Source of the DNA: Verrucomicrobiales bacterium | GTDB lineage: Bacteria > Verrucomicrobiota > Verrucomicrobiia > Verrucomicrobiales > DEV007 | Length of the DNA stretch: 50,820 nt | Direction of reading: 5' to 3' | Assembly: GCA_028280355.1 (NCBI GenBank) | Contig: JANQMB010000316.1 | Span: forward strand, 1 to 50,820 | Part shown: positions 29,978 through 46,893 of the stretch, in pieces | How the letters are laid out: each line of letters starts with the position of its first letter | Numbering within the stretch: position 1 is the stretch's first letter | Translations under genes and position numbers: made by a program | The notes under the pieces: model-generated | Database searches by the model: none | What the model saw: the letters and a program-made list of their open reading frames with translations, nothing else | What the model was told of the DNA's origin: nothing

Positions 29978-31438
29978 CTACGCCAGGATCGCCTTGATCG
30001 GCTTCGCCTCTTCGACGCCGGTCAGGCGCACGTCGAGGCCCTGGTTGCGGACAGTGAAGCGCTCGTGGTCGATGCCCAGACAGTGCAGGATGGTGGCGTT
30101 GACGTCGTTGACGTGCACCGGGTCGAGGGTCGGGCTGTAGCTGAAGTCGTCGGTCTCGCCGTGCACGATGCCGCCCTTGATCCCGCCGCCGGCCATCCAC
30201 ATGCAGAAGTTGCGCGGGTGGTGGTCGCGGCCGTACTTCTCCTTGGTCAGCGTGCCCTGCGAGTAGACCGTGCGGCCGAACTCGCCGCCCCAGACGACCA
30301 GCGTCTCGTCGAGCATGTCGCGCTCCTTGAGGTCCTGGATCAGCGCCGCCACCCCCTGGTCGCTGTCGCGGCACTGGTTGGTGAGCTCGTAGGGCAGGTT
30401 GCCGTGCGAGTCCCAGCCGCGGTGCATGAGCTGCACCACGCGCACGCCGCGCTCGACCAGCCGCCTGGCCAGCAGCGCGGTGGAGGCGAACGAGCCGGTG
30501 TTCTTCACCTCGGGGCCATAGAGGTCGAGGGTGGCCTTCGACTCCCCCGAGATGTCGGTGAGCTCCGGCACGCTGGCCTGCAGGCGGAAGGCCATCTCGT
30601 ACTGGGCGATGCGGGTCTGGATGTCGGGGTCGCCGAAGGCGTCGAAGCTCTTCCTGTTCAGTTTGCCGAGCGTGTCCAGCAGCGCGCGGCGGTCCTCGCG
30701 GTCGACGCCGGGCGGGTTGTCGAGGTAGAGCACCGGGTCGCCCGCCGAGCGCAGGACGACGCCGGTGTGCTTGCCGGGCAGGAAGCCGGAGCCCCAGAGG
30801 CGGCTGTAGAGCGCCTGGCCGTTGGAGTCCTTCGGGTAGCGCGGCATCAGGGCGACGAAGGCCGGCAGGTCGCTGGTCTCGGCGCCGAGCCCGTAGGAGA
30901 CCCAGGAGCCGAGGCTCGGGCGCCCCGGGATCTCTGTGCCGGAGAAGACGAAGGTGCAGGCCGGGTCGTGGTTGATGGCGTTGGTGTGGACGCTCTTGAT
31001 CAGCGCGATGTCGTCGACCACCTTCGCGGTGTGCGGCAGCAGCTCGCTGACCCAGCGGCCGCACTGGCCGTGCTGGGCGAACTTGAACTTCGACGGCGCC
31101 ACTGGGAACTTCGCCTGCTTGCTGGTCATCGTCGACAGGCGCTGCCCCTTGCGCACCGAGTCGGGGAGGTCCTCGTCGTAATGCTTGATCAGGTCCTTCT
31201 TGTAGTCCCAGGTGTCGAGCTGCGAGGGCCCGCCGTTCATGTGCAGGTAGATGACCGCCTTCGCCTTCGGCTTGTGGTGCGGGAACCCGGAGAGGGCCGG
31301 GTGGACCTCCGAGGCGGCCGAGGCGCGGCCGGAGAACGCCCCCCCGAGGAGGTAGGGCAGGGCGACGCCGCCGAGGCGAAGGCCGGACTGGCCGAAGAAC
31401 TGGCGGCGGTTGAGGGCGAACTGGGCTTCTGGGATCAT
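29978..31438 (-). CDS. Tat-exported DUF1501 protein
   Basis: 486 aa from the ATG at 31438; the open frame to 32218 is a shadow of the upstream gene. It opens with a Tat-type signal ([20 protein letters not shown], residues 10-29). DUF1501 hallmarks are [88 protein letters not shown] and [20 protein letters not shown]. The fold belongs to the alkaline-phosphatase/sulfatase-like superfamily in outline, but the function of DUF1501 is not established. It starts 8 bp after the DUF1549/DUF1553 gene, the usual partner in Verrucomicrobia and Planctomycetes, so the two form an operon. Confidence 0.92.
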
Positions 31439-31446
31439 GGGGGTGG

Positions 31447-34400
31447 TCAGTTGCGGACGATGCTCTCGTCCAGGTTCAAGATCAGGTTGGCCACCTGGGT
31501 CCAGGCGGCGAGCTCGGGGACGTCGACCCCGGCGGGCGGCGGGGAGTCGCCGAACTTGATCGCCTTGTCGGCCTCGGCGGGCGCCCCGCGATACTTCTCC
31601 AGCTGCTTGCGGAAGAAGGCACCGACGATCTGCATCTCCTCCTCGCTCGGCTCGCGCGACAACACGACGCGATAGGCGAAGGCGAAGCGCTCTTTGCCGT
31701 CGGTCGAGGAGGCCATCATGCGCGTCGCCAGCCCGCGCGCGGCCTCGAAATACTGCACGTCGTTGAGCAGCTGCAGGGCCTGCAGCGGGGTGTTGCTGCG
31801 CTCGCGGCGGAAGCAGGAGGCCTCGCGGTTCGGCGCGTCGAAGTTGGCCATGAAGGGGGCGGGCGCGGTGCGCTTGAGGAAGGTGTAGATGCTGCGGCGG
31901 TAGAGGGCGTCGCCGTTGTCGCGCCGGTAGGTGGCGGTGTTCGAACCGCGGAAGCCGACCGGCTCCCAGATGTTCGGCGGCTGGTAGGTCTTCACCCCCT
32001 TGCCGCCCATCTGCATCTTCAGCAGGCCGCTGGCGAACAGCGCCGAGTCGCGCAGCTGTTCGGCGTCCAGGCGGATGCGCGGCCCGCGCGCCAGGAGGCG
32101 GTTCTCCGGGTCGTCTTTCCAATTCTGCGCCGGCGCGGCGCTGGCGCGGCGGAAGGCCTGGCTGGTGACCATCATGCGCATCAGCTTCTTGACGTCCCAG
32201 CCCTCCTCCTGGAACCACACCGCCAGCCAGTCGAGCAGCTCCGGGTGGCTGGGCAGGTCGCCCTGGGTGCCGAGGTCGTGGCTGCTCTTCACCAGCCCGA
32301 CGCCGAACACCTGCTGCCAGAAGCGGTTGACGGTGACCCGTGCGGTCAGCGGGTTCTCGCGGGAGACCAGCCAGTTGGCCAGGTCGAGCCGCGTCGCCCG
32401 CCCGTCGGGGTCCGCCTTCTTCAGGGGCGGGAGCACCGCCGGCGTGTCCGGCACGACCTTCTCGCCCGGCTTGTCATAGGCGCCGCGCAGCATGACGAAG
32501 CTCTCGCGGGGCTTGGGCAGGTCGCGCCAGACGAAAGTCGAGGGGATCGAGGCCTCGTAGCCCGAACGCTCCTTGGCCACCGCGGCGATGGCCCCGGCGG
32601 TCTCCGCGAAGCGGGGCTTGGTCTCGGCGCAGACATGCTGCAGGTAGTAGATCTTGAGGCGCTCCAGCTGCTCCGGCGTGCGCTCTTTGTCCGGCCCCTC
32701 CTTGAGCCAGGCGTTGATGTCGCCCGGGGCGCCCTTGGTGTCCTTGCCGGCGGCGGCCTTCCGCCAGACGATGAACGAGCGGGTCGGATCGCCCGCCGGG
32801 TCGGACTTGCCGACCATCCCCATCTTGTCGAAGTAGGCCGTGCCGCCCTGGACCGCGAAGGCGTATCCGGTGACCGGGGTGCCCGGGGCGAGGTTCATCT
32901 TCCCGGCGGGCAGCTCGAGCCGCACCCACTTGCCCGCCCCCGGCAGATCCCCGGCGCGGTGGCGCTCGCCGGTACCGGCCTTGCCCCAGGGGATCACGTC
33001 CTGTCCCCAGAACACCCGGTGGTTCCAACCGTTGTTGAAGAACTGGACCATGATCTCCTTCGGCAAGTCCGCCGGGTCGAGATAGACGTGGACGAAGAAC
33101 TTCGCGCCCTGGGGTACCACCAGCGGCGGCGCCACGTTCTCGCAAAAGTCCTGGGCGATGCCCGGTCCGCCGCGTTTGATGGATGCGTTGCCGCTGAACA
33201 CCGGTGCCGGCGACGCCGAGTAGGCCAGGGGGTGCCCCTGGGTCGTCACCTTCGAACCGGCCGGGAAGGCGTCCTCGAACCAGACGTGCTCCACCTCGGA
33301 GACCCTCGATGGGACGAGCGAATCCCCCGGGTCCTTGTATCTGGAGGCCACCTCCTTGCCGATGGCGTCGGCCTTCGCCTGCAGGTCGGCGGTGCGCTTG
33401 GTGAACGCGGCGATCTTGGCGTCGTAGTCCGGGGGCGTCACCTTGATCGACGGGTTGGTGAGCAGGGCGTTGCCGTCGAGGGCTGGGTCGGCGTTGGAGT
33501 GGAAGAAGGCGTAGAAGGAGTAGAAGTCCTTGGCCGTGATCGGGTCGAATTTGTGGTCGTGGCACACCGCGCAGCTGGCGGTCAGGCCGAGCCAGGTCTG
33601 GGCGGTCGTCGAGGCGCGCTCGACCGCGTAGCGGAAGATGAACTCCTCCGGGATGGTGCCGCCCTCGCCGGTGGTGATGTTGCAGCGGTTGAAGCCGGTC
33701 GCCACCATCTGGTCGACCGAGGGCTTCGGCAGCAGGTCGCCGGCGACCTGCTCGATCGTGAACTGGTCGAAGGACAAGTTGCGGTTGAAGGCCCCCACCA
33801 CCCAGTCGCGGTAGGCGTACATCTGCCGCTCGTTGTCGAGGTGCATGCCGTGGGTGTCCGCGTAGCGGGCCACGTCTAGCCAGTGTCGCGCCATCTCCTC
33901 GCCGTAGTGCTTCGAGGCGAGGTAGCGGTCCACCATCCGCTCGTAGGCGCCGGGCTCGCGGTCGCCGAGGAACTGGTCCAGCTCCTCTGCGCTCGGCGGC
34001 AGCCCGGTCAGCGTGAAGGCGACCCGGCGGATCTGGGTGCTGCGGTCCGCCTCGGCGGTCGGCGCCAGCCCGCCGCCCTCCATCGCGGCGCCGAGGTAGC
34101 TGTCGATGGCGTGCCCGCCGGCCGGCGCGGCGCCGACCTTGGGGACCTCGAAGGCCCAGTGTTTCTGGTAGGGCGCGCCCCCCTCGATCCAGCGCTTGAG
34201 GGTCTGCTTCTCGGCGTCGCTGAGGCGCTTCTTGATCTTGGTCGGCGGCATGACGTCGTCGTCGTCATCCGTGGCGATCCGGTACCAGATCTCGCTCTCC
34301 TCCGGTTTGCCGGGCACGATGGCGATCTCGCCGCTCTTGCCCTCGCCGTATGCGGCCTCCGGGACGTCCAGCCGCAGGCCGCCCTTGCGGTGCTCGGAAT

Positions 34401-34539
34401 CGACGCCGTGGCAGGAGAAGCAGTGCTCGGAAAGGATCGGCCGGATGTCGCGGTTGAACGACAGCGGTTCGGCGGCGGCGGCCGGGAGGGTCGCGCACGC
34501 GAGCACGGCGAGACAAATGGGGGGAAGGTGTAGGGTCAT
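31447..34539 (-). CDS. Exported DUF1549/DUF1553 (PSCyt1/PSD1-type) protein with two CxxCH motifs
   Basis: 1030 aa. Signal peptide ([20 protein letters not shown], about 7-26). PSCyt1 cytochrome-like domain (about 28-115) with CFSCHG at about 42 and the MPP of [13 protein letters not shown]. PSCyt2/DUF1549 (about 145-350) with [20 protein letters not shown] and a second [14 protein letters not shown] beta-rich insert (about 420-590; [30 protein letters not shown]) looks carbohydrate-binding-like. DUF1553/PSD1 (about 740-1000) has [37 protein letters not shown] and [20 protein letters not shown]. The two CxxCH motifs suggest covalent haem. Such proteins are inferred to work with DUF1501 proteins in exported oxidation or polysaccharide handling, but this is unproven. 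The 35-bp and 38-bp elements lie upstream. Confidence 0.92.
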
Positions 34540-35037: not shown

Positions 35038-35165
35038 TCAGCGCTGCTCGGCGACGAAGCGGACGAACTGCCTGGACTCCGCCGACTTGGGCTGGGCGAC
35101 CCGGTAGACCCACGTCGCCGTCCCGTCGGCGTGAAGATCGCCTCCTCGAACTCGCCCCGTGTCAT
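35038..35165 (-). pseudogene. Fused remnant: FecR-type N-terminus joined to a surface-protein C-terminal tail
   Basis: The ATG at 35165 overlaps the (restored) sigma stop as ATGA, exactly as in the intact pair at 44640-44643. It opens MTRGEFEEAIFT, which resembles MNRDDFETAVFA of the intact FecR. After only about 8-12 residues the similarity ends. One frame over, the sequence reads GDLHADGTATWVYRVAQPKS then AESRQFVRFVAEQR and stops at 35038. That is the C-terminal module of the CotH-type surface proteins (compare ETLVFRSAAPLASNQRIFVR in the 1652-aa neighbour). A deletion appears to have removed the FecR body and most of a following surface-protein gene. Basis: pattern matching only. Confidence 0.55.
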
Positions 35166-35715
35166 GCCGCCCCCCCTTCTGACCCCAGCTGGTCGGCCAT
35201 GCATTTGCGCAGCTGGGACCGCAGGCGAAAGAGCGTCACCCTCAGCGAGGCGCGCGACCTCCCGACCTCCCGACCTCCGCCGCGAAGCGCTCCATCTCGA
35301 CCTTCGAGGTGTAGCGCACCTCGAGGAGGTCCCGGTCCTTCGCACGCAGCTTCGCTATGCACCGCTCCAGCGCCTGGTGTCTATCCTCAACCCACCCGGG
35401 GGACTGGTCCTCAACCGGCCCCTCCCTAGCCAGCGCGCTGGCGACATCGTCGTCGAAGACCAGCCAGTCGCCGCGCCTCAGCTTCTTGCGCTCGTTCATG
35501 ATCCGGTGGCGGGCGATGGTGAACACCCAGGCTCGGAAATTCGTGCCCAGCTCGAAGCGGTCCTTCTTCTGCCAGATGATCAGGTTGATGTCCTGCAGCA
35601 GGTCGAGAACGTTGGGGTGCCCGGGGATCAGGCCGACGACGAACGAACGCAAAGCACCCTGATGCTCCGTCAGAAGCATCGCGAACTGGCGTGTTTTCTC
35701 GTTGTCGGCGTGCAT
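35162..35715 (-). pseudogene. ECF-like sigma-70 factor, frameshifted near region 4
   Basis: From the ATG at 35715 (MHADNEKTRQFAMLLTEHQG) the frame encodes region 2 (LLQDINLIIWQKKDRFELGT, NFRAWVFTIARHRIMNERKK) and most of the linker. It then ends early at 35242 as ...EVGRSGGRAPR (157 aa). CGACCTCC is present three times in tandem at 35255-35278. Taking away one 8-bp unit restores ...EVGRSRASLRVTLFRLRSQL and RKCMADQLG to a stop at 35162, giving exactly 181 aa, the length of the intact paralogue at 44640-45185. As written, the region 4 DNA-binding helix is lost. It is either a pseudogene, a slippage-switchable gene or an assembly error. Confidence 0.82.
35255..35278. repeat. 3 x 8-bp tandem repeat causing the sigma-factor frameshift
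   Basis: CGACCTCC occurs three times without interruption. Two copies keep the sigma-factor frame; three copies shift it. 8 bp is not a multiple of three, so gain or loss of a unit toggles the frame. Confidence 0.85.
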
Positions 35716-35852: not shown

Positions 35853-38800
35853 TCACCGGGTGGTGAGGTTGTAGCGGACGAAAATGCGCTGGTTGGAGGC
35901 GAGCGGGGCGGCGGAGCGGAACACCAGGGTCTCGCCCGGCCCGCCGGCGCGCTCGCGGCCGACAAAGACGACGGCCCCCGACCCGCCACCCCAATTGACC
36001 AGGTCGGCCGAGGTCTGGACGACGATGTCGACATCGTCGGCGGTCAGGCTGCGCGCGATGCGGAAGACGAGGTAGCGGTCGGTGACGCCGCCGACCTGCA
36101 GCGCCTCGACGCGCATGCCGCCCGAGGGCGGCGCGAAGTCGTGGGTGGTCGGCAAGGTGCCCTGATAGTATTCGACCAGGGTGTCACGCCCGTCGCGGTC
36201 GGGATCCGGGTGGATCTCGGGAGTCGGCACACCGTTCACCACCTTCCAGTTTGAGTACGTGTTGCCGTCCGCCCCCCCCGGCGTCCCGCCGACGCCGACG
36301 CTGCCTCGCCAGTTGAACGGATCCGAATGGTCGGGCGTCGGGGTCCGGGCGGGGTCGATGAGCACCAGGCTGAACCCGTTGCCGTCGGCCTCCTCCGGCC
36401 ACGGCGCCTTGTCGTTGTAGGCGAAGGAGTGGATCGTCGAGCCCCCCGCGTCGACCAGCGTCAGCAGTTCCCCGTCGTTGCTCAAGTTGCCCGAGTATTC
36501 CCCGGCCACCTGCCCCGCGAGGCCGGTCCCATAGCGAGCCTGGAAGGCGGCGACATTGTTCACCAGCAACACGCGCGCGCCGGGCGCGAGGGTCCGCAGC
36601 GGGCTGGTCGAGAAGTCGAACTCGATCCCCTGCCCGCCGACGCGCAGGAAGCGCACGCCGCTGAGGTTCAAGGTCTGCACACCGGTGTTCAACAGCTCGA
36701 CGAACTCGAAATCGTCGCGGTCGGTGAAACCCGCGGCGAGTTCGGCGGGGGAGGCGTCGGCCGGCCGGTAGTGGATTTCCGAGACCACCAGGTTCCCGGC
36801 GCCAGCGGGGACGGTGCCGATGAAGAAGTAGGAGTCGGCCGGAGCGCTCCAGTCCGAGCCGACGAGGGCGCGGGCGGTGACCAGCGTCGATCCCCCCAGC
36901 TCCACCCCAGCCCCAGCCGCCGACTGGCCGGCGCGGAGTTCGGGGACGATGAGGAAGTCGGAGCTGACCAGGTCACCGTTGAGGCCATGGATCGCCAGGA
37001 CGTTCGCCCCATCGACCAGCGCGCCGAGGTGCTGGTCGATCGGGAAGTCCACGAAGCGGAGGGCCTCGGCATCCGGGTGGTCGCCGTTCGAGCTCGAGTT
37101 CCAGGCCGCCACCGAGGGCGGGTTGCCGCTCGCCACGCGGACGCCGTTGAGATAGGCGATGAAGCCATCGTCGTATTTCATCCTCAGGACCAGCGAATCG
37201 TATGCGGAGGCGTCGGCGACATTGAACCCGACCCGCAGGTAGACGCCGGTGTTCACCCCGTCCATCGCGGCGCGGAGATCGAGGCTGATCTCGCCGCCGT
37301 AGGTCGAGTTCCGGTCGTATCCGACACCGGTCGTGCCCGCCTGCCAGGAGGAGTCGTCGAAGCCGACGGCGGCCCACCCGAGGCCGGCGGCCGGGTTGGC
37401 CGCTGTCGGCACGAGGGCGCGGACCGGCGCACCCGTCCCGACCAGGGAGGTCAAGGTCGTGCCCCCATCGTAGGTCTGTGCGCCGCTGGCGACGCCGCCG
37501 CCGGGCGCCCGGGGATCGGTCCCGTCGAGCGTATAGTAGATCGTCCCAGCCGATGAGTTGAACGTCACCCGGAAACCCGCGGGCACATCGCCGCCGGGGA
37601 CGGTAAAGACCGGCCGCGGCGCGAACTGGGCGTCGATCCAATCCGCCCGTGCCGTCAGCCAGCTCTTCAGGGCCGACAGCTCCGCCTCCCAGGCGGCGGC
37701 GTCGGGGTGCCCCTGGCGGACCGCACGAACGGTCCCGATCTCCGCGGCCTGGCCGTCGATGACCGCGAGCACCGCCGCGTTCGCCAGCGCCCGGTCGCGG
37801 TGGTAGAACCAGCGGTCGATGTAGAGCTGGACGAAATCGGGATCGGCCATCAGGCGCCCGTACCAAAGCCTGTCCGCGCGGTGGAACAGGGTGCCCTGGG
37901 GCGGACCGCTGCCCTGGAAGCTGGCGGCGGAGTAGTTGTAGTCCCAGACCGGCCCCATCCGCAGCCTCCCGTCGTCACCGACCCAGGGGAAGATGCTGAC
38001 CAGCAACCCGTCGCCGTTGCGGCTGAGGTTGTTGAGGATGAAGTAATCGACGAAATCCTGGGCGTCGAGGTACTTGGGGTAGCCCAGGACGGGGTCGCGC
38101 CAGAGCGCGTTGTTGTAGAGCACATCCTCGAAGGTGACGAACCAGTTCTCGATCGCCGCGCGCTGGGCGGCGTTGATCTTGTACCCGTTCGGGTTGTCGA
38201 AGTTGAGGAAGCCGTTGCTCTGCCGGGGGATGTCGTCGCCCCGGGAAGGGGTGTTGGGCGGCGTCTCGGCGACCCGGTTGGGCCCGCGGGTGTGGAAGAA
38301 CTGCGGGGTCGTAGCGCCGTTGGCCGCCGGGAAGCCACCGGGCGGGATCGAGTCCATCCGGTTGATCGTCAACAGGAAGCTCCCGCTCGTACCGTCGTCG
38401 CTCAACCGCTTGAAGTCGAGCCGCCCGTCGCCGCGCGAGACCTTCTCGACGATCCCGTAGAGCCCCCGCCGGTCGGAGAGCGACAGGTCGCCGCCGTCCT
38501 CGTTGATGAAAGCCTCCACCCAACGAAGCCGCGCCGCGTATCGGCCCATATTGTTGCTCAGCTGGTACATGAAGGAGTTGTATACCAGCGCAGAGTCCCT
38601 GTTGGGGCCGGGGTCGGGGTAGTAGAGCACCCAGTCGGCGTGCTTCGGCATGTCGAGGACGGCGACCTCCCGCTCCGCCTCCGCCTCGTCCCAGGCCTCG
38701 ACGCTGTACGGCTTCTGTGACCAGGTTGAGGAGAAGGCGCCGCGGCCACGGATGCCAACGCGGCTGATCATCTGCGGGGCGGCGCCCAGCGAGACCATGC

Positions 38801-40811
38801 CGGTGCTGGGGTCGCGGTCGAAGGCCGCCCAGACCGCGCTCTGCCGCTCGACCTGCTGCACCCCGGCGCCGGTGCCGCTAGAACCCTTGGCGGGGATCGT
38901 GCCGCCGCCAAAGTTGTCGATGACCAGCAGCGGCAGGTCGGACTGGTAGCTCGCCAGGTCGGCGGCGAGGCGGATGTACATCTCGCCAGAGACCGGGCTC
39001 GACTGCCCGGCGAACTCCGCCACCGCGCGCAGGTGGGTGGTGGCGCCGACGGTGACCGGCGAGGAGTACAGGGTCCCGTTCGCCGGCGACGGCGCGCTGC
39101 CGTCGGTCGTGTAGTAGATCGACGCGCCCGCGGTCGCCGAGCTGAGAACGATGCCCAGGGTACCGGTGAAGGTCTGGCTCGCCACCGAGAAAGTCACCGG
39201 CTTCGGTGCCGGTGGGGTCGGGTCGTTCGCCGCCCCCGGGGTCGGGACACCCATGAACTGGACCCTCGACGGATCGCCGTGGAATATCCCGTAAGACACA
39301 TCGCTCGACTGCGGCGGGAAGGCCGGCGAGAACTCATGGAGGACGGGTCCGCCACCGGGCGCGACCAGGGCCAGGTATTCGCCGCCCTTCGCCAGGCGGA
39401 AGTTCGCATGCAGCTCGCCGGGCGGCGTCCCGGTGACCTTGCCCGACGCGAAGACGACCACCCGCCCCCCGGAGGGCAGCACGTGGGCAGGGAAGGTCCA
39501 TTTCGTCAGGTTGGTCGGGTCATCGGTAAGGTGGTAGCCGGCGAGGTCGATCGGGGTGGCGGTCGGGTTGAAGATCTCGATCCAGTCCTCGAAGTCGCCG
39601 GCGCCGTCGGCGAGCACCGAATCGTTATCGGCCATGAACTCCGAGATCACCGGATGGGCCGCCGGCACGGCGACTTCGACCGTGACCCCGGCCGCGGCCC
39701 CCCCGAAGGGTCCGCCCGCTGTCATGGTGAAGGTGGTGGTGGTGGCAGGCACGACCGCGATGGATCCCGCCCCCCCAGAGGTTTGGGCGGCGACGTCCCC
39801 AGGGAAGGGGCCGATCGCCCAGGTCGAAGCGAACTGGGTCTGCCACGAGAGCGTGACACTCTGGCCCGCAACGATCACCGGCCGGTCGGCCGTGAAGCCG
39901 AGGATACGGGCGGCCGGGTCGACGGTCACCGTGACGACCTCCTGGACGGTCCCATCGGCGTTGGTCGCCGAGAGGGTATAGTCGGTCGTCGATCCAGGGG
40001 CGACGACCAGGCTGCTCTGCCCGGTGACGTCGACCCCGTTGACGGAGAGGGTCTGTGCACCGGACACGGTCCAGGTCAGGGTGGAAGCCCCTGGGGCGAG
40101 ATAGGCGTCGGGGCTGGCGGTGAAGGCCCCGATCACCGGCGGATAGGTAACGCCGTTATAGGCGTCGGAATGGCGCCGGATCGCCTCTGGGGCGAGCACC
40201 GTATCGTAGACCGTCACCCGGTGTATCGTCCCGACCATCCCCTGGGAGCCCCCGCCCACGCCGCCCAGGAAACCCGAGCCCGAAGGCATGTTGAAACTGC
40301 CATCGACCCCGGTCCTCTGCCCGACGTCAACCCCGTTCTCATAGAGATTCATCCGCCCGTCCCCGTCCCAGACGTAGGCGATGTGGACCGGCGCAGTAGG
40401 TGACAGCACGCTGGGGCTAAACACGTAGTCCAACACGCCGCTCTCCGTAAAACCGAGCTGCCCGGTGTCACTCCATTGTTCGTATCGAAGGCTGCTCGAA
40501 GAATCCGAGCCGACCGCCAGATAGCCGACAGCCCCCGAGGCGGCAGGGTCACCCTCGAGGATGAACTCCATCGTGACGTCCCCCGAGGTCGCTCCGAAGT
40601 CGAACGCCTGGCTGTTTCCCCCGGTGAAGCTGGCCGCCGTCAGCAACTTCGCGCTCGGGACAAGACCACCGGTCGTCTCATCGGCCGTGATCGACGCGTC
40701 ATAGGCGGCGAGGTCTGCGAAACCCGAACCGGGATGCGCCGACGCAAACAGGAAGAAGGCGAACCCTTTCCAGAATCGGGCGCCTGAGAAAAACATGGGG
40801 GCGATCTGCAT
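35853..40811 (-). CDS. Giant exported LamG/Ig/LTD/CotH-like surface protein
   Basis: 1652 aa with a signal peptide near the start (FWKGFAFFLFASAHPGSG). Domains: concanavalin/LamG-like (about 30-215, VHIAYVWDGDGRMNLYENGV); two Ig-like segments (about 220-385); lamin-tail (about 385-500, HPVISEFMADNDSVLADGAG); a chitobiase-C-like segment (IYYTTDGSAPSPANGTLYSS); a CotH-like domain (about 625-1060) whose motif is GPVWDYNYSAAS near 958, with Asn at the second acidic position; a second IYYTLDGTDPR segment; a jelly-roll-like module (about 1120-1300, YDDGFIAYLNGVRVASGNPP); lamin-tail (about 1345-1480); a Ca-binding-like DPDRDGRDTLVEYYQGT; and the C-terminal module (TSADLVNWG, RIFVRYNL). Probably surface-bound; function unknown. 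An ATG at 40796 is an alternative start. Confidence 0.87.
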   Translation of the reverse strand: MQIAPMFFSGARFWKGFAFFLFASAHPGSGFADLAAYDASITADETTGGLVPSAKLLTAASFTGGNSQAFDFGATSGDVTMEFILEGDPAASGAVGYLAVGSDSSSSLRYEQWSDTGQLGFTESGVLDYVFSPSVLSPTAPVHIAYVWDGDGRMNLYENGVDVGQRTGVDGSFNMPSGSGFLGGVGGGSQGMVGTIHRVTVYDTVLAPEAIRRHSDAYNGVTYPPVIGAFTASPDAYLAPGASTLTWTVSGAQTLSVNGVDVTGQSSLVVAPGSTTDYTLSATNADGTVQEVVTVTVDPAARILGFTADRPVIVAGQSVTLSWQTQFASTWAIGPFPGDVAAQTSGGAGSIAVVPATTTTFTMTAGGPFGGAAAGVTVEVAVPAAHPVISEFMADNDSVLADGAGDFEDWIEIFNPTATPIDLAGYHLTDDPTNLTKWTFPAHVLPSGGRVVVFASGKVTGTPPGELHANFRLAKGGEYLALVAPGGGPVLHEFSPAFPPQSSDVSYGIFHGDPSRVQFMGVPTPGAANDPTPPAPKPVTFSVASQTFTGTLGIVLSSATAGASIYYTTDGSAPSPANGTLYSSPVTVGATTHLRAVAEFAGQSSPVSGEMYIRLAADLASYQSDLPLLVIDNFGGGTIPAKGSSGTGAGVQQVERQSAVWAAFDRDPSTGMVSLGAAPQMISRVGIRGRGAFSSTWSQKPYSVEAWDEAEAEREVAVLDMPKHADWVLYYPDPGPNRDSALVYNSFMYQLSNNMGRYAARLRWVEAFINEDGGDLSLSDRRGLYGIVEKVSRGDGRLDFKRLSDDGTSGSFLLTINRMDSIPPGGFPAANGATTPQFFHTRGPNRVAETPPNTPSRGDDIPRQSNGFLNFDNPNGYKINAAQRAAIENWFVTFEDVLYNNALWRDPVLGYPKYLDAQDFVDYFILNNLSRNGDGLLVSIFPWVGDDGRLRMGPVWDYNYSAASFQGSGPPQGTLFHRADRLWYGRLMADPDFVQLYIDRWFYHRDRALANAAVLAVIDGQAAEIGTVRAVRQGHPDAAAWEAELSALKSWLTARADWIDAQFAPRPVFTVPGGDVPAGFRVTFNSSAGTIYYTLDGTDPRAPGGGVASGAQTYDGGTTLTSLVGTGAPVRALVPTAANPAAGLGWAAVGFDDSSWQAGTTGVGYDRNSTYGGEISLDLRAAMDGVNTGVYLRVGFNVADASAYDSLVLRMKYDDGFIAYLNGVRVASGNPPSVAAWNSSSNGDHPDAEALRFVDFPIDQHLGALVDGANVLAIHGLNGDLVSSDFLIVPELRAGQSAAGAGVELGGSTLVTARALVGSDWSAPADSYFFIGTVPAGAGNLVVSEIHYRPADASPAELAAGFTDRDDFEFVELLNTGVQTLNLSGVRFLRVGGQGIEFDFSTSPLRTLAPGARVLLVNNVAAFQARYGTGLAGQVAGEYSGNLSNDGELLTLVDAGGSTIHSFAYNDKAPWPEEADGNGFSLVLIDPARTPTPDHSDPFNWRGSVGVGGTPGGADGNTYSNWKVVNGVPTPEIHPDPDRDGRDTLVEYYQGTLPTTHDFAPPSGGMRVEALQVGGVTDRYLVFRIARSLTADDVDIVVQTSADLVNWGGGSGAVVFVGRERAGGPGETLVFRSAAPLASNQRIFVRYNLTTR

Positions 40812-41017: not shown

Positions 41018-41767
41018 CTATACCTTCCGCCGGCGGCGGGATATCAAACCGAGTAAACTAAGACCCAGGAGGGAGGCGGCTCCGGGCTCGGGAATTGCGG
41101 TGGCCATCAGGTTGTCGTAGAACCCGGTCTCCGGCGCGGCCGGGCCATCGCGGTAGATTCCAAACGGCGCGTTCACCAGCGCTGCATCGGTCCAGCTGTT
41201 CGTGTAGACGTTCCCCGGGTTGTTCCCGTCGGTGAGCCTGAGTTGGAACAGGCCGACGGTACCACCGAAGTTCTGGGTGACCTCAAGCTTGTGCAGCACC
41301 CCGTTGGCGGGGGTGAACCCGACGTTCTGGTTACCAAACCCACCCGGACCGACGACGCGCAAGGCTCCGCCCGCGAACCCGGGGTGGAAGGCCACCAGGG
41401 TCGATCCGATGATCATCCCGACGTTGTAGTTCCCGCCGCTGTTGCTGGCCCCGGCCTCCACCGAGTAGGTCACCTCGCCGGCGAACCCGGGAACCTGTGC
41501 GAAGGCCAAGAAGTTGCTGTTGTCCGAGGCGGTGATGACGGCCTGGCCACCGGAGGCCGTCACCGCTTTCCCCGCGGGCGCGGTCGTGCTGAAGGTCGGA
41601 TACGCGGCGTTGAAAGCGGTCGTGTCGGCGGCGGCGGTGTCGAAAGTCTCCAGGAACAGGGTGGTCGCGTTCGCCGCGGGGGCCAGCATACTCGCTGCCA
41701 GGGCGACCGCTAGACTACGACCCCGGAGAGAGGAGGACTTGGATCGGAAAGGGGACAGTGTTTTCAT
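41018..41767 (-). CDS. PEP-CTERM protein sharing the FecR ectodomain
   Basis: 249 aa. Signal peptide (LRGRSLAVALAASMLAPAAN, cleaved near ATT). One beta-rich domain (about 36-222) begins LFLETFDTAAADTTAFNAAY and contains FAGEVTYSVEAGASNSGGNY, VGMIIGSTLVAFHPGFAGGA, NVGFTPANGVLHKLEVTQNF and FGIYRDGPAAPETGFYDNLM. The tail IPEPGAASLLGLSLLGLISR plus RRR is a PEP-CTERM signal. The domain matches, along its whole length, the C-terminal half of the FecR protein at 43213-44643 and the protein at 41921-42943. Its position as the last gene after sigma-FecR suggests it belongs to that system. Confidence 0.88.
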   Translation of the reverse strand: MKTLSPFRSKSSSLRGRSLAVALAASMLAPAANATTLFLETFDTAAADTTAFNAAYPTFSTTAPAGKAVTASGGQAVITASDNSNFLAFAQVPGFAGEVTYSVEAGASNSGGNYNVGMIIGSTLVAFHPGFAGGALRVVGPGGFGNQNVGFTPANGVLHKLEVTQNFGGTVGLFQLRLTDGNNPGNVYTNSWTDAALVNAPFGIYRDGPAAPETGFYDNLMATAIPEPGAASLLGLSLLGLISRRRRKV

Positions 41768-41920
41768 TCTGTTTCTTGCAGTTTCTATGGTTGAGGTGCC
41801 GCGGCGGCGTCCCCCCTTCCCCGATGTCGGGCTGGGGCAACTGGCGCCACTGGAGGTCTGCTGTTTGCTTTCCTATTGGAGGTGGAGGGGAGAGGAATCG
41901 GAGTCGGGCTGGAGGTTTCG

Positions 41921-42943
41921 TCATCCGCTGTTCTGCCTGACTTTGAAAAACAGTTCCGGGCTCACCTCCAACGGCGGGTCGAGCGCGAGGGTCGGGTTCT
42001 CGAACACGAAGGTCGTGGTCTCGCCCTGAGAGCCGACATCATCAGTGACGTCGGCGTCGAAGTTGATCAGGTTCTCCGACCATAGAACCGTATAGCTCGC
42101 ACCCGGCAGGGAGATCCAGGTGAGGCTGATCATCTCGTTCGGCAGCAGGGCGATCTCGGTGATCTGGAGCGGGTCGGCGGCCCCGTCGGAGGCCATCAGG
42201 TTGTCGAAGAGCCCGCTCTCCCCAGAAAGGGGGCCGCTCCGGTAGATACCAAAGTCTTGGCCGACCAGGGACGCGTCGATCCAGGAGTTGGTGTAGACGT
42301 TGGCGGGGTTCTCGCCATCGGTGAACGTGATCTCGAACAGGCCGACGACGCCTCCGGCGTTCTGTTTGACCTCCAGGCGATGGAGCACGCCGTTGGCTGG
42401 GGTGAAGCCCATATCCTGGTTGCCGAAGCCGCCAAATCCCTCGACGCGCAGGGCGCCCCCGGGGTAACCCGGATGGAAGGCGACGCGGGTCGACCCGATC
42501 AGCATGCCGATGTTGAAGGCCCCGTCGCACAAGGTGGCGCCGATCTCCACCGAGTAGGTCACCTCGCCAGGGAAGCCGCGCACGACGGCGAGCCCGAGGC
42601 CATTGTCTTCGAGCGTGTTGGTGATGACCGCCTGACCGGCGGCGGCAGTCACCTCGCGTCCGGCGCCCACCGCCGCCGCGAACGCCGGGTAGGCCGAGAC
42701 GAACTCTACGGTGGTGGCGGCGTCCGCGTCGAAGGTCTCCTGGTACAGAGTGGAGGCATGCGAACTCGACATCCCCGCCCCGAGGGACGCGAGCGCCAAC
42801 AGTTTGGCCGCTGCCGATCGCCCCCCAAACACCGATCGGAAAGCCCACCTACCGGGGGCGGCCGATACGGATGCAGCGCGCCCATCGCCCGCACGAAGGG
42901 GAAGGGCGGCGCCCCCCTCAGCGGCTGTCAGCTTCGGTTTCAT
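41921..42943 (-). CDS. Exported protein sharing the FecR ectodomain, with a surface-protein C-terminal module
   Basis: 340 aa from the ATG at 42943. The hydrophobic signal segment (SAAAKLLALASLGAGMSSSH) starts only near residue 43, so a GTG at 42832 is a possible real start. The ectodomain (LYQETFDADAATTVEFVSAY ... FNIGMLIGSTRVAFHPGYPG ... DMGFTPANGVLHRLEVKQNA ... FGIYRSGPLSGESGLFDNLM) aligns with the PEP-CTERM protein downstream and with the FecR C-terminal half. Instead of a PEP-CTERM tail it ends with the module seen in the ~630-aa proteins (YTVLWSENLINFDADVTDDV, TTTFVFENP, LFFKVRQNSG). It lies between FecR (270 bp upstream) and the PEP-CTERM gene (153 bp downstream). Confidence 0.83.
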   Translation of the reverse strand: MKPKLTAAEGGAALPLRAGDGRAASVSAAPGRWAFRSVFGGRSAAAKLLALASLGAGMSSSHASTLYQETFDADAATTVEFVSAYPAFAAAVGAGREVTAAAGQAVITNTLEDNGLGLAVVRGFPGEVTYSVEIGATLCDGAFNIGMLIGSTRVAFHPGYPGGALRVEGFGGFGNQDMGFTPANGVLHRLEVKQNAGGVVGLFEITFTDGENPANVYTNSWIDASLVGQDFGIYRSGPLSGESGLFDNLMASDGAADPLQITEIALLPNEMISLTWISLPGASYTVLWSENLINFDADVTDDVGSQGETTTFVFENPTLALDPPLEVSPELFFKVRQNSG

Positions 42944-43212
42944 GGCGTGTCGGTGAGTGCCCTCGGCGCCATGCGTCGAAGCCAACTCAACGGGATACAG
43001 GGGTATCCCCCCCAATGGACGGATCCCCTCACCCTTGTCAGTTCCACCCTAAGAGAGATCTTAACAAGTTTTCGTCCGAACCTCCCCAGGGGGCGGACAC
43101 GTGGGAGCGGGATAGGCTGGGGGCACCCGACGGCCAACGGCAAGCCGACCAGGGGCGCAGGCATCCTCCCGCCACCTCGCCACCTCGCCACCGCCTGAGA
43201 AACGCCCCCGGA

Positions 43213-44643
43213 TCAGGGGACTGTCATCTTCAGGTTGTCGAAGAACACGACCCCCTCCGGCCAAGAGCCGTCCCGATAGACGCCGAAGGGTTGGCCGACG
43301 AGCCCCGGGTCCTCCCAGCTGGCCCTGAAGGTCTTGGTGGGGTCGCTACCGTCGGTGAACTTGACCCTGAACAGCCCGTTCGGATATTGTGTGACCTCCA
43401 GGTGGTGCAGCACATCGTGGGCGGGGGTGAACCCCATGTCCCTATTCCACACCCAGAGTTTGTGCCTGTCGCCCATCCCCCCGGCTGGCATGTACCCCCC
43501 CTGTCTCTCGATCCGAAGCCTCCCGCCCTCTTCCCCGGGATGGAACGCCACGACGGTGTCGCCGATCCGCATCCCGAGGTTGAATTTCCCATTGCAGGCA
43601 CTCGCCCCGATCTCCACCGAGTAGATCACTTCGCCGGTGAACCCGGGCCGCATCGCGGAGACGTGGAAAGCGTTGCGCACGTCTGGGTGCATGATGAAAC
43701 CCCGGCCGCCGGAGACGGAAATCCTCCCGACGCCACCGCGCTCGGCCGTGGACATCCTGGGGTACGCACGATTGAAGGCGGCGGTATCCGCCACATCGAC
43801 ATCGAAAGTCTCGACATCGATGCCCGGCAACAACCCCGTGGAGAAACGTGTTGGGTCCGGATCGATCATGCGCCAGCCGCCCCCCGGCACCGAGGCGCGC
43901 GCGCTGCCGGCGGCCAGCGACTCGAGGGCGGGGGGGCCCCGGAGCCGCTCGACCTCGACCCGCCCCTCGAAAACGTGGACTTCGTCCGGCGCCTCCACCT
44001 CCGAGACGACGCCGAACTCGGTGCCCAGATCGGTAAGCCGCAGCTCGGGGGTCTCGACCTGGAAACCGGCCGCCTTCCCGGGGACCGTGAACCGGCCGCT
44101 CCCGAAATGGAACCCGACAAGGTCCGGCCGGTGTAGGATCAGGTCGGCTGGGGCGTGGACGATGGCGACGGTGCCAGAGCGGAAGGCCAGTTCGATCGAC
44201 CCGCGCTGGAGTTGCAGGCGGGACCCCACCTCAAGCACGTCGCCCGCAGGCGCCTCCCCGCCCTCGGCCGCGGAGTGGGTGACCGAGAACTCGGCCAGCA
44301 GGGAGCCCTTGATGCGGGCCGCTGGCGCGTCCGGCGACGCGACGAAGACCGCGAACACCAGGCATGCCGCGACCGCGATACCCCCGGCCAACATCGCCAT
44401 ACGCAGGGACCGGCGTTTCTGCCGGGCGACCAACCGGTCCATCGGGATCACGTTGTCGAACCTGACCGCGCCCTCGCCGGCCCGCCGGTCCAGCATGAGG
44501 CCATGCATCGCGACCAGCTCCCGGTACTCAAGCCTCGCCTCCGCGGAACCCCGGAGATGCCCCTGTAGCTCCGAGAGGGCGACCGGGGAGATCTCGGTGT
44601 CTAGCAAGGCGAAAACCGCCGTCTCGAAATCGTCGCGGTTCAT
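43213..44643 (-). CDS. FecR-type membrane regulator with a secreted-protein-like ectodomain
   Basis: 476 aa from the ATG at 44643, which overlaps the sigma stop (ATGA). Residues 1-80 are a cytoplasmic anti-sigma-like segment (MNRDDFETAVFALLDTEISP, LRGSAEARLEYRELVAMHGL) without an obvious zinc motif. TM helix at about 82-102 (MAMLAGGIAVAACLVFAVFV). FecR domain about 110-235 (VLEVGSRLQLQRGSIELAFR, TVAIVHAPADLILHRPD, LRLTDLGTEFGVVSE, EVHVFEGRVEVERL). From about 278 to the end a ~200-residue domain (VETFDVDVADTAAFNRAY, TGEVIYSVEIGASACNGKFN, LGMRIGDTVVAFHPGEEGGR, GFTPAHDVLHHLEVTQ, FFDNLKMTVP) matches the two exported proteins encoded next. I infer that it holds or activates the sigma factor in response to a surface signal. 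Confidence 0.88.
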   Translation of the reverse strand: MNRDDFETAVFALLDTEISPVALSELQGHLRGSAEARLEYRELVAMHGLMLDRRAGEGAVRFDNVIPMDRLVARQKRRSLRMAMLAGGIAVAACLVFAVFVASPDAPAARIKGSLLAEFSVTHSAAEGGEAPAGDVLEVGSRLQLQRGSIELAFRSGTVAIVHAPADLILHRPDLVGFHFGSGRFTVPGKAAGFQVETPELRLTDLGTEFGVVSEVEAPDEVHVFEGRVEVERLRGPPALESLAAGSARASVPGGGWRMIDPDPTRFSTGLLPGIDVETFDVDVADTAAFNRAYPRMSTAERGGVGRISVSGGRGFIMHPDVRNAFHVSAMRPGFTGEVIYSVEIGASACNGKFNLGMRIGDTVVAFHPGEEGGRLRIERQGGYMPAGGMGDRHKLWVWNRDMGFTPAHDVLHHLEVTQYPNGLFRVKFTDGSDPTKTFRASWEDPGLVGQPFGVYRDGSWPEGVVFFDNLKMTVP

Positions 44644-45185
44644 GTCGTTCCCTGCCGATCGCCGATCGCCAGGCGGCTGGCGATACACCGGCGCAGGCTG
44701 GAGCGGAGGCGGTGGAGCGTGACGCTCAGCGATGGCATCGACCTGCCCGTCTGCGAGGAGTAGCGCTGGAGCTCGGCCTTCGACGTATAGCGCGCCTCGA
44801 CGAGGTCGCGGTCCTCCGGGCGCAGCTTCGCCATACAATGCTCGAGCGCCTGGTGCCTGCGCAGCAACCATTCGGAGCTATACTCGTCGTCCTCGTCGGC
44901 CATAGTCTCGACGACGTCGTCGTCGAAGACGAGCCACTGGCTGCGCCTCAGCCTCTTGCGCTCGTTCATCACCCGGTGGCGGGCGACCGTGAACGACCAG
45001 GCACGGAAGTTGGTGCCCAGTTCGAAGCTATCCTTCTTCTCCCAGAGGATGATGTTGATGTCCTGCAGCAGGTCGAGGATGTTGGGGTGGTTGGGGATCA
45101 AAGAGAGGACAAAGGACCGCAGCATCCCCTGGTGCTCGGTGAGCAACAGGGCAAACTGGCGGGTCTGTTCGCTGTCGTTCGGCAT
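44640..45185 (-). CDS. ECF-like sigma-70 factor (Rhodopirellula/Verrucomicrobium-type)
   Basis: 181 aa (MPNDSEQTRQFALLLTEHQG). Region 2 is visible at about 38-78 (LLQDINIILWEKKDSFELGT, NFRAWSFTVARHRVMNERKR). Region 4 is at about 115-172 (HQALEHCMAKLRPEDRDLVE, SKAELQRYSSQTGRSMPSLS, VTLHRLRSSLRRCI). The stop codon overlaps the FecR start by 4 bp, so the two are translationally coupled and probably form a sigma/anti-sigma pair. Its likely targets are surface-protein genes such as those downstream; this is inference. The frameshifted copy at 35162-35715 is its paralogue. Confidence 0.92.
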   Translation of the reverse strand: MPNDSEQTRQFALLLTEHQGMLRSFVLSLIPNHPNILDLLQDINIILWEKKDSFELGTNFRAWSFTVARHRVMNERKRLRRSQWLVFDDDVVETMADEDDEYSSEWLLRRHQALEHCMAKLRPEDRDLVEARYTSKAELQRYSSQTGRSMPSLSVTLHRLRSSLRRCIASRLAIGDRQGTT

Positions 45186-45248
45186 AGTTTCGGGCGCCGC
45201 CTCACCCTGGTGCAGTTCCTCATGTGGGGATTTCTTAACAGGAAATCC

Positions 45249-45384: not shown

Positions 45385-45447
45385 CGCCGCTCAGCTCAGG
45401 ATGTCCGCCGCTCAGCTCAGGATGTCCGCCGCTCAGCTCAGGATGTC
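45385..45447. repeat. 3 x 21-bp tandem repeat spanning a stop codon
   Basis: CGCCGCTCAGCTCAGGATGTC occurs three times without mismatch (one A/T letter beyond 20 bases, listed only to define the unit at 45385-45405). On the minus strand each unit reads GAC ATC CTG AGC TGA GCG GCG. The first unit met by ribosomes therefore encodes the DUF1501 C-terminus DILS-stop, and the next two are identical untranslated copies. Confidence 0.9.
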
Positions 45448-46893
45448 GAAGACCGGCTCCACCGGCTCGACGCCGGTGAGGCGCTGGTCGAGCCCCTGGT
45501 GTTTCACCGACAGGCGGTTGTGGTCGAGGCCGAGCAGGTGCAGCAGGGTGGCGTTGAACTCGTGGATGTGCACCGGGTCCTCGGTGATGTTGTAGCTGAA
45601 GTCGTCGGTGGCGCCGTAGACGATGCCCGGCTTGACTCCGGCGCCCGCCATCCAGACGGTGAAGCACTTCGGGTGGTGGTCGCGGCCGTAGTCCTCGCGC
45701 GACAGGGCGCCCTGGCAGTAGATCGTGCGCCCGAACTCGCCGCCCCAGATCACCAGGGTGTCGTCGAGCAGGCCGCGCGCCTTCAGGTCCTGGATCAGGG
45801 CGTAGCTGGCCTGGTCGACGTCGCGGCACTGCAGGGGCAGGTCGCGGGCGATGGTGCCGTGCTGGTCCCAGCCGCGGTGGAAGATCTGCGTGAAGCGCAC
45901 CCCGCGCTCGGCAAGGCGGCGCGCCAGCAGGGCGCAGTAGGCGAAGGTGCCCGGCTTGCGCGAGTCCGGGCCGTAGAGCTCGAAGGTCGAGTCGGGCTCG
46001 CCCTTCAGGTCGGTGAGCTCGGGCACCGAGGTCTGCATCCGGTAGGCCATCTCGTACTGCGCGATGCGGGTCTGGATCTCCGGGTCGCCGAACTCCTCGT
46101 AGGCCCTCGCGTTGATCTTGTTCAGCGCGTCGAGCATGGTCCGCCTGGTGCCGGGGTCGACGCCGGCGGGGTCGGAGAGGAACAGCACCGGGTCGCCGGC
46201 CGAGCGCAGCAGGACGCCCTGGTGTTTGGAGGGCAGGAAGCCCGAGCCCCACAGGCGGTTGAAGATCGCCTGCGCGTCGCGCTTCGACGACCAGGTGGCG
46301 TTGAGCACCACGAAGGTCGGCAGGTTCTCGTTGCTGCTGCCGAGGCCGTAGCTCAGCCAGGAGCCCAGGCTGGCCTTGCCGGGCAGCTGGTCACCGGTGC
46401 AGATGTAGGTGATGGCCGGGTCGTGGTTGATGGCCTCGGTGTGCATCGAGCGGATGAAGCACAGGTCCTTGGCCATCTTCTTGGTGAACGGCATCAGCTC
46501 GCTCACCCAGGCGCCATCGGCGTTGTTGTCGACCTTCTCGAAGGCGTACTTGGAGGGCGCGATCGGGAAGCGCTTCTGCCCGGACGTCATGGTGGTCAGC
46601 CGCTGCCCCATGCGCACGCTCTCCGGCAGGTCCTTGTCGAAGAGCTCGCCCATCGCCGGCTTGTAGTCGAACATGTCGATCTGCGAGGGCGCCCCCGACA
46701 TGAACAGGTAGATGGCGCGCTTGGCCTTCGGCGCGATCTTGCGGAAGGCCGGCGGGACCTCGCCGGCGGCGACCGCGTCGCGTGCCATCAAAGAGGACAG
46801 CGCGGCGCCGCCCAGCCCCATCGCCCCCGACCGGAAGAAGTGCCTCCGGGTCCCGGCGTTCAGGTTCTCGGCGATGGGGGACGGGATGTCCAT
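45433..46893 (-). CDS. Tat-exported DUF1501 protein (second copy)
   Basis: 486 aa. The N-terminus carries a Tat-type signal ([20 protein letters not shown], about 15-34). DUF1501 motifs are [69 protein letters not shown] and [20 protein letters not shown]. It has the same length as the protein at 29978-31438 and is clearly related to it, though differing throughout, so the duplication is old. Its C-terminal codons lie in a 21-bp tandem repeat. It starts 22 bp after the exported oxidoreductase and is the last gene of the DUF1553-oxidoreductase-DUF1501 operon. Confidence 0.92.

Follow-up and report, generated by a model that had tools for sequence, protein, structure and literature searches.

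The closest described precedent for the locus analysed here is the sigmaI6-RsgI6 switch of Clostridium thermocellum. In that switch a GH10 module carried by the anti-sigma factor RsgI6 is 57% identical to Xyn10D, and sigmaI6 activates the Xyn10D promoter together with the promoter of its own gene, sigI6 (PMC4711584). The extracytoplasmic tails of RsgI proteins bind cellulose, xylan or pectin (PMC4711584). An earlier note on the 50,820-nt stretch of DNA that we have analysed (the window) drew attention to an ECF sigma factor gene, an adjoining FecR gene and two genes for exported proteins, and knew of no described system with this layout; RsgI6 and Xyn10D supply such a precedent. We propose, with a probability only a little better than even (about 55%), that an autoregulated ECF sigma/FecR switch controls this pair of surface proteins, and that the jelly-roll tail of FecR senses the glycan ligand of the pair.

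Layout of the locus

The locus lies on the - strand and, as read from the sequence, is ordered sigma factor, FecR, exported protein 41921-42943, PEP-CTERM protein 41018-41767 and a giant CotH/lamin-tail protein. The four genes described in the earlier note are all present at the coordinates and on the strand it gave, and the sigma gene (44640-45185) does overlap the FecR gene (43213-44643) by ATGA. The sigma factor belongs to the gvs1 (Rhodopirellula/Verrucomicrobium) family of ECF factors, scoring 150.2 bits against TIGR02989 (curated cut-off 124.55), and some twelve further FecR loci in the genome encode relatives that are 34-55% identical to it. The assembly used comprises 4.4 Mb and is 85.6% complete, and our analysis concerns one locus in this one genome.

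FecR is a protein of 476 residues with a cytoplasmic N-terminus, a transmembrane helix at about residues 82-104 (read from the sequence) and a FecR domain at about residues 178-230. The match to PF04773 is borderline, at 23.5 bits for the protein alone (cut-off 24) and 25.6 bits in the genome search; its paralogues in the same genome exceed the cut-off. This domain, the membrane helix and the overlap with an ECF sigma gene place it among the FecR-type proteins, and we infer from its sequence that it is a membrane anti-sigma factor and sensor that holds the sigma factor. Residues 1 to ~275 are 37-50% identical to about a dozen paralogues of the genome. Homology to most of them ends at residue ~264-280, the point at which a new domain begins, implying a clean replacement of the FecR tail.

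The exported protein 41921-42943 carries this new domain at 42188-42751, followed by a C-terminal tail that ends in FFKVRQNSG and resembles in type the longer partner proteins encoded at other loci. Its start is tentative, with a TTG located further upstream at 43015. In the second exported protein (41018-41767) the domain occupies 41099-41662, and the PEP-CTERM assignment made in the earlier note is borne out by a PF07589 match of 22 bits (cut-off 20.7). An exosortase is encoded in the genome (167 bits); the PEP-CTERM/exosortase class covers 41018-41767 only and not 41921-42943. The next gene downstream (35853-40811, - strand) encodes an exported CotH/lamin-tail/LamG protein of 1652 residues with Pfam matches to CotH (104.7 bits) and LTD (91.6 bits), and similar giants close several of the paralogous loci.

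The locus is flanked on one side by PSCyt1-PSCyt2-PSD1 and DUF1501 genes (30068-34539) and on the opposite side by a second DUF1501 gene (45436-46893). The assignment of the genome to the Verrucomicrobiota is a probable one, based on its gvs1, PSD1 and DUF1501 genes and on a remark in the earlier note. A decayed duplicate of the switch is present at 35163-35715. It contains a gvs1 sigma gene that has a frameshift and shares 67% identity with the first, followed by the first FecR codons, after which the reading breaks down; TGTTAAC-N14-GAAACTT lies upstream.

A jelly-roll domain shared by FecR and the exported proteins

Alignment confirms that a single domain is common to the FecR tail (residues 275-476; 43216-43821, - strand) and both exported proteins, with 48-63% identity over ~190-200 residues. 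The two exported copies are 63% identical to each other, and the FecR copy is 50% and 48% identical to them (E values of 1e-45 and 1e-42). These three are the only copies in the 4.4 Mb assembly. The domain is matched by no entry of Pfam or NCBIfam and by no PDB sequence, the weak PDB matches obtained not being credible. Laminin_G (PF13385, Laminin_G_3) matches the tails of the FecR paralogues but neither this FecR tail nor any of its 30 relatives.

An AlphaFold model of the full-length FecR reached a pLDDT of only 43.5, and we therefore used a run on the domain alone with 31 sequences, which gave an all-beta model with a pLDDT of 85.7 and a pTM of 0.85. Foldseek places this model among the concanavalin-A-like L-type lectins and glucanases, with TM-scores mostly between 0.4 and 0.6 and a best E value of 6e-6. 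The possibility, raised in the earlier note, that the FecR tail is an unrelated fold is thus not what the model suggests: the predicted tail is a jelly roll, the same fold class as LamG.

Residues that are invariant across the 31 relatives are preserved in the FecR tail, and differences within the domain fall more often at third codon positions (83) than at first (64) or second (60) positions. The third-position excess, together with the retention of the invariant residues and of the fold over ~50% divergence, indicates that the domain is still under constraint. In a phylogenetic tree the FecR tail groups with the PEP-CTERM copy (support 98/84), although the alternative topology for the direction of domain transfer is not rejected (p-AU 0.17).

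Three distant relatives, all in the same order, emerged when 388 genomes of the phylum were searched with a profile of the domain, and a widened profile found the domain in 41 of 387 genomes of that order, our own genome included. Those relatives that we inspected are exported proteins of about 340-540 residues, each in single copy and none a FecR; distant relatives of this single-copy kind are present in another family of the order. The other 40 genomes contain a Pfam-less exported family with this jelly roll, partly HEAT-bearing; the one long-form relative scanned has a Pfam match to HEAT repeats. These proteins belong to the same family as the locus domain, sharing 22-29% identity and the motifs FHPG..GG..R and MGFTP, but differ in being single-copy, in having an N-terminal part of their own, and in lacking linkage to a FecR where inspected. 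No close relatives of the domain were found in the 74 other genomes of the bacterial family, in two contig scans with different patterns or in plasmids, the scans being based on short peptide patterns.

FecR loci of the genome and the bacterial family

The genome contains 21 FecR matches, ~15 of which form a paralogous gvs1-sigma/FecR set. All six paralogue tails that were run through Pfam are LamG, and the remaining ones appear similar by eye. Across the bacterial family the FecR tails are LamG, CBM9, CBM96-like or unassigned, the CBM9 or CBM96-like tails being found at three loci in relatives. The recurrence of LamG, CBM9 and CBM96-like domains suggests that FecR proteins of this family use the tail position to accommodate carbohydrate-binding modules.

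At least six sister loci (L020, L021, L025, L029, L030, L035) encode FecR, then a PEP-CTERM protein, then a longer exported protein, with a gap of about 47-132 nt between the FecR and PEP-CTERM genes. The exported pair has an N-terminal domain in common, as detected with E values from 1e-11 to 1e-101 at L021, L025, L029 and L030, and by reading the translations at L035 and, less clearly, L020. The nature of this domain varies from locus to locus and includes LamG types, DUF4082-like, F5/8-type-C-like and unassigned domains. The window locus is organised in the same way, except that its longer exported protein comes before the PEP-CTERM protein.

What sets the window locus apart is that its FecR carries the domain of its exported pair, as is the case for only 1 of the 75 FecR loci surveyed in the bacterial family. 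When tails were compared with neighbouring ORFs across these 75 loci, the window locus gave its matches at 1e-45 and 1e-42, L030 one at 1e-6, L020 one at 3e-3, and the rest nothing below 1; among 2,330 ORFs, none from the other loci matches the window FecR tail. The L030 match is LamG against LamG, and FecR tails from other loci match the L030 proteins equally well. We accordingly reject a general rule that FecR tails match their neighbours, since a strong match occurs at a single locus and the weak one at L030 is not locus-specific. A matched tail is thus not a general feature of FecR design. The earlier note had named rare and random co-occurrence as an outcome that would speak against its reading: rare it is, but the match within this locus is far beyond chance.

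A promoter-like site at two positions in the locus

The pattern TGTTAAGA-N13-GGAACTG-N3/4-AGGGTGAGG precedes both the sigma gene, from 45240, and 41921-42943, from 43066. Expressed as TGTTAAG-N14-GGAACTG, the two sites span 45213-45240 and 43039-43066 on the - strand, the latter within the 269-nt gap that follows FecR. TGTTAAG-N12-16-GGAAC has exactly two occurrences in the 4.4 Mb assembly, namely these two sites. The sites share three blocks totalling 24 nt, which was equalled in none of 400 shuffled pairs (a block-based test devised with the motif already in view), and the pattern pair arose in none of 100 window shuffles; counting matches in the promoter regions gave no significant result against the GC-rich background. 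Base composition leads us to estimate that the two-part pattern should occur about once by chance genome-wide, and the strength of the site consequently lies in both copies being upstream of locus genes with the same spacing.

TAACG is present within 100 nt upstream of 9 of the 15 gvs1 sigma genes; its frequency in random stretches is 1.4% (P 1e-13, a value that is too small because the paralogues are related). This suggests that a TGTTAAC/G-like element is probably a general autoregulatory -35 box of gvs1 sigma genes, with TGTTAAG probably being a variant private to this locus. No promoter-like site was found upstream of 41018-41767, which would presumably be controlled by read-through. The common site, together with the conserved sigma-FecR-exported pair layout of the six sister loci, strengthens the view of the earlier note that the exported genes are likely targets of the sigma factor.

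A proposed switch and its alternatives

We envisage that FecR retains the sigma factor at the membrane and that its extracytoplasmic tail acts as a sensor version of the domain of the exported proteins, having replaced the LamG tail that is usual in this FecR family. Because the tail and the exported proteins carry one domain, a common ligand is to be expected, with a polysaccharide the likeliest candidate. Its binding would free or activate the sigma factor, which would then drive the exported genes, along with the operon that encodes it, from TGTTAAG-N14-GGAACTG. The new surface proteins would bind the same glycan and might compete for it, closing the loop. The common domain and its fold, its unique occurrence on FecR, the promoter-like site and the locus plan are results of the analysis; the anti-sigma action, the glycan ligand, the promoter activity and the feedback are what we infer. 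That FecR senses a ligand shared with the exported proteins is plausible given the LamG, CBM9 or CBM96-like tails of the family. The operon contains no enzyme gene, which counts against a glycan switch, as does the lack of a promoter-like site before 41018-41767. Nor can a match between tail and pair be a requirement, since the sister FecRs get by with LamG tails that have no specific match to their exported pairs.

With one genome and one locus to consider, the domain duplication could be neutral. A copy of the exported domain would in this case have replaced the LamG tail of FecR with one of the same fold class, leaving sensing little changed. We consider this an appreciable possibility, though clearly less likely than not. 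Duplication is evident at the locus, in the paralogous exported pair and the decayed sigma/FecR copy, the FecR and exported domains are of the same fold class at several sister loci too, and the event is unique among the 75 FecR loci. These points are to be set against the constraint on the domain, as seen in the invariant residues and fold kept over ~50% divergence and in the codon-position pattern. It is improbable, to our minds, that the FecR tail senses by contact, one of the two modes suggested in the earlier note, binding the exported proteins directly through homotypic jelly-roll contacts and thereby monitoring their export or sorting instead of a ligand. In favour of this, the exported domains are closely related to the tail and would share its compartment, and the promoter-like site is suggestive of a loop linking the two; however, FecR and exported domains do not match at the sister loci, and FecR tails elsewhere are carbohydrate modules.

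Both the ligand-sensing switch and direct contact draw on the promoter-like site, which might be left over from the duplication of an upstream segment or be coincidental, with the exported genes outside the sigma regulon. The single chance match expected in 4.4 Mb allows for this, but we think it very unlikely: each site precedes a gene of the locus and the spacing is equal, yet their 13-nt spacers differ, unlike those of a recent copy, and neither set of shuffles reproduced the pair. We retain the ligand-sensing switch as our main reading. More tentatively, the gvs1-FecR loci may be diversifying sense-and-display cassettes, each presenting its own binding domain on a matched pair of differently anchored surface proteins. 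The copying of that domain onto FecR at the window locus would then have re-tuned the sensor, its specificity being exchanged by natural means while a private promoter (AAG instead of AAC) co-evolved with it.

Comparison with known switches

This apparently verrucomicrobial genome is rich in FecR-CBM proteins. Our searches found nothing relevant on FecR-LamG regulators in Planctomycetes or Verrucomicrobia in the literature covered, most subscription journals being outside its scope. As one domain serves both sensor and surface proteins, identifying what either of them binds would reveal the input of the switch, and the LamG-tailed sister loci beside it in the genome provide internal controls. 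The gvs1/FecR-LamG loci of this genome and of the bacterial family have the same sigma family, the related N-terminal half of FecR, paired exported proteins and a CotH/LTD giant. They differ from the window locus in a LamG tail that is not specifically matched to the pair and in having no second promoter-like site before the exported genes that follow FecR.

The overlap of an ECF sigma gene with that for a FecR-domain membrane protein is shared with FecI/FecR switches, but here no TonB receptor gene is seen beside FecR, the protein has a large C-terminal jelly-roll tail, and the likely targets are exported PEP-CTERM-type proteins. The resemblance to SigI/RsgI would extend to the sensing principle. 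Both have a membrane anti-sigma factor (putative here) with an extracytoplasmic carbohydrate-binding module (here a candidate, by its fold) that resembles a module of the target; the FecR tail is homologous to both of its putative targets, at 48-50% identity. The sigma factor drives its own and the target promoter there and, judged from the promoter-like site, would do so here, and several paralogous sets are present per genome in both. The components differ, being sigmaI and RsgI there and ECF and FecR here. FecR has no RsgI match in Pfam or NCBIfam and the sigma factor is a gvs1 ECF factor, and so the switch is not a member of the RsgI/SigI family, though it may work alike. The target of sigmaI6-RsgI6 is an enzyme encoded elsewhere in the genome, whereas here two apparently non-enzymatic surface proteins are encoded directly downstream. 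From this standpoint, the FecR tail carrying the domain of its exported pair is apparently a one-off form of a known sensor principle, in which the sensor copies the module of its target, and would extend that principle from clostridial RsgI/SigI to the FecR/ECF switches of an apparently verrucomicrobial genome.
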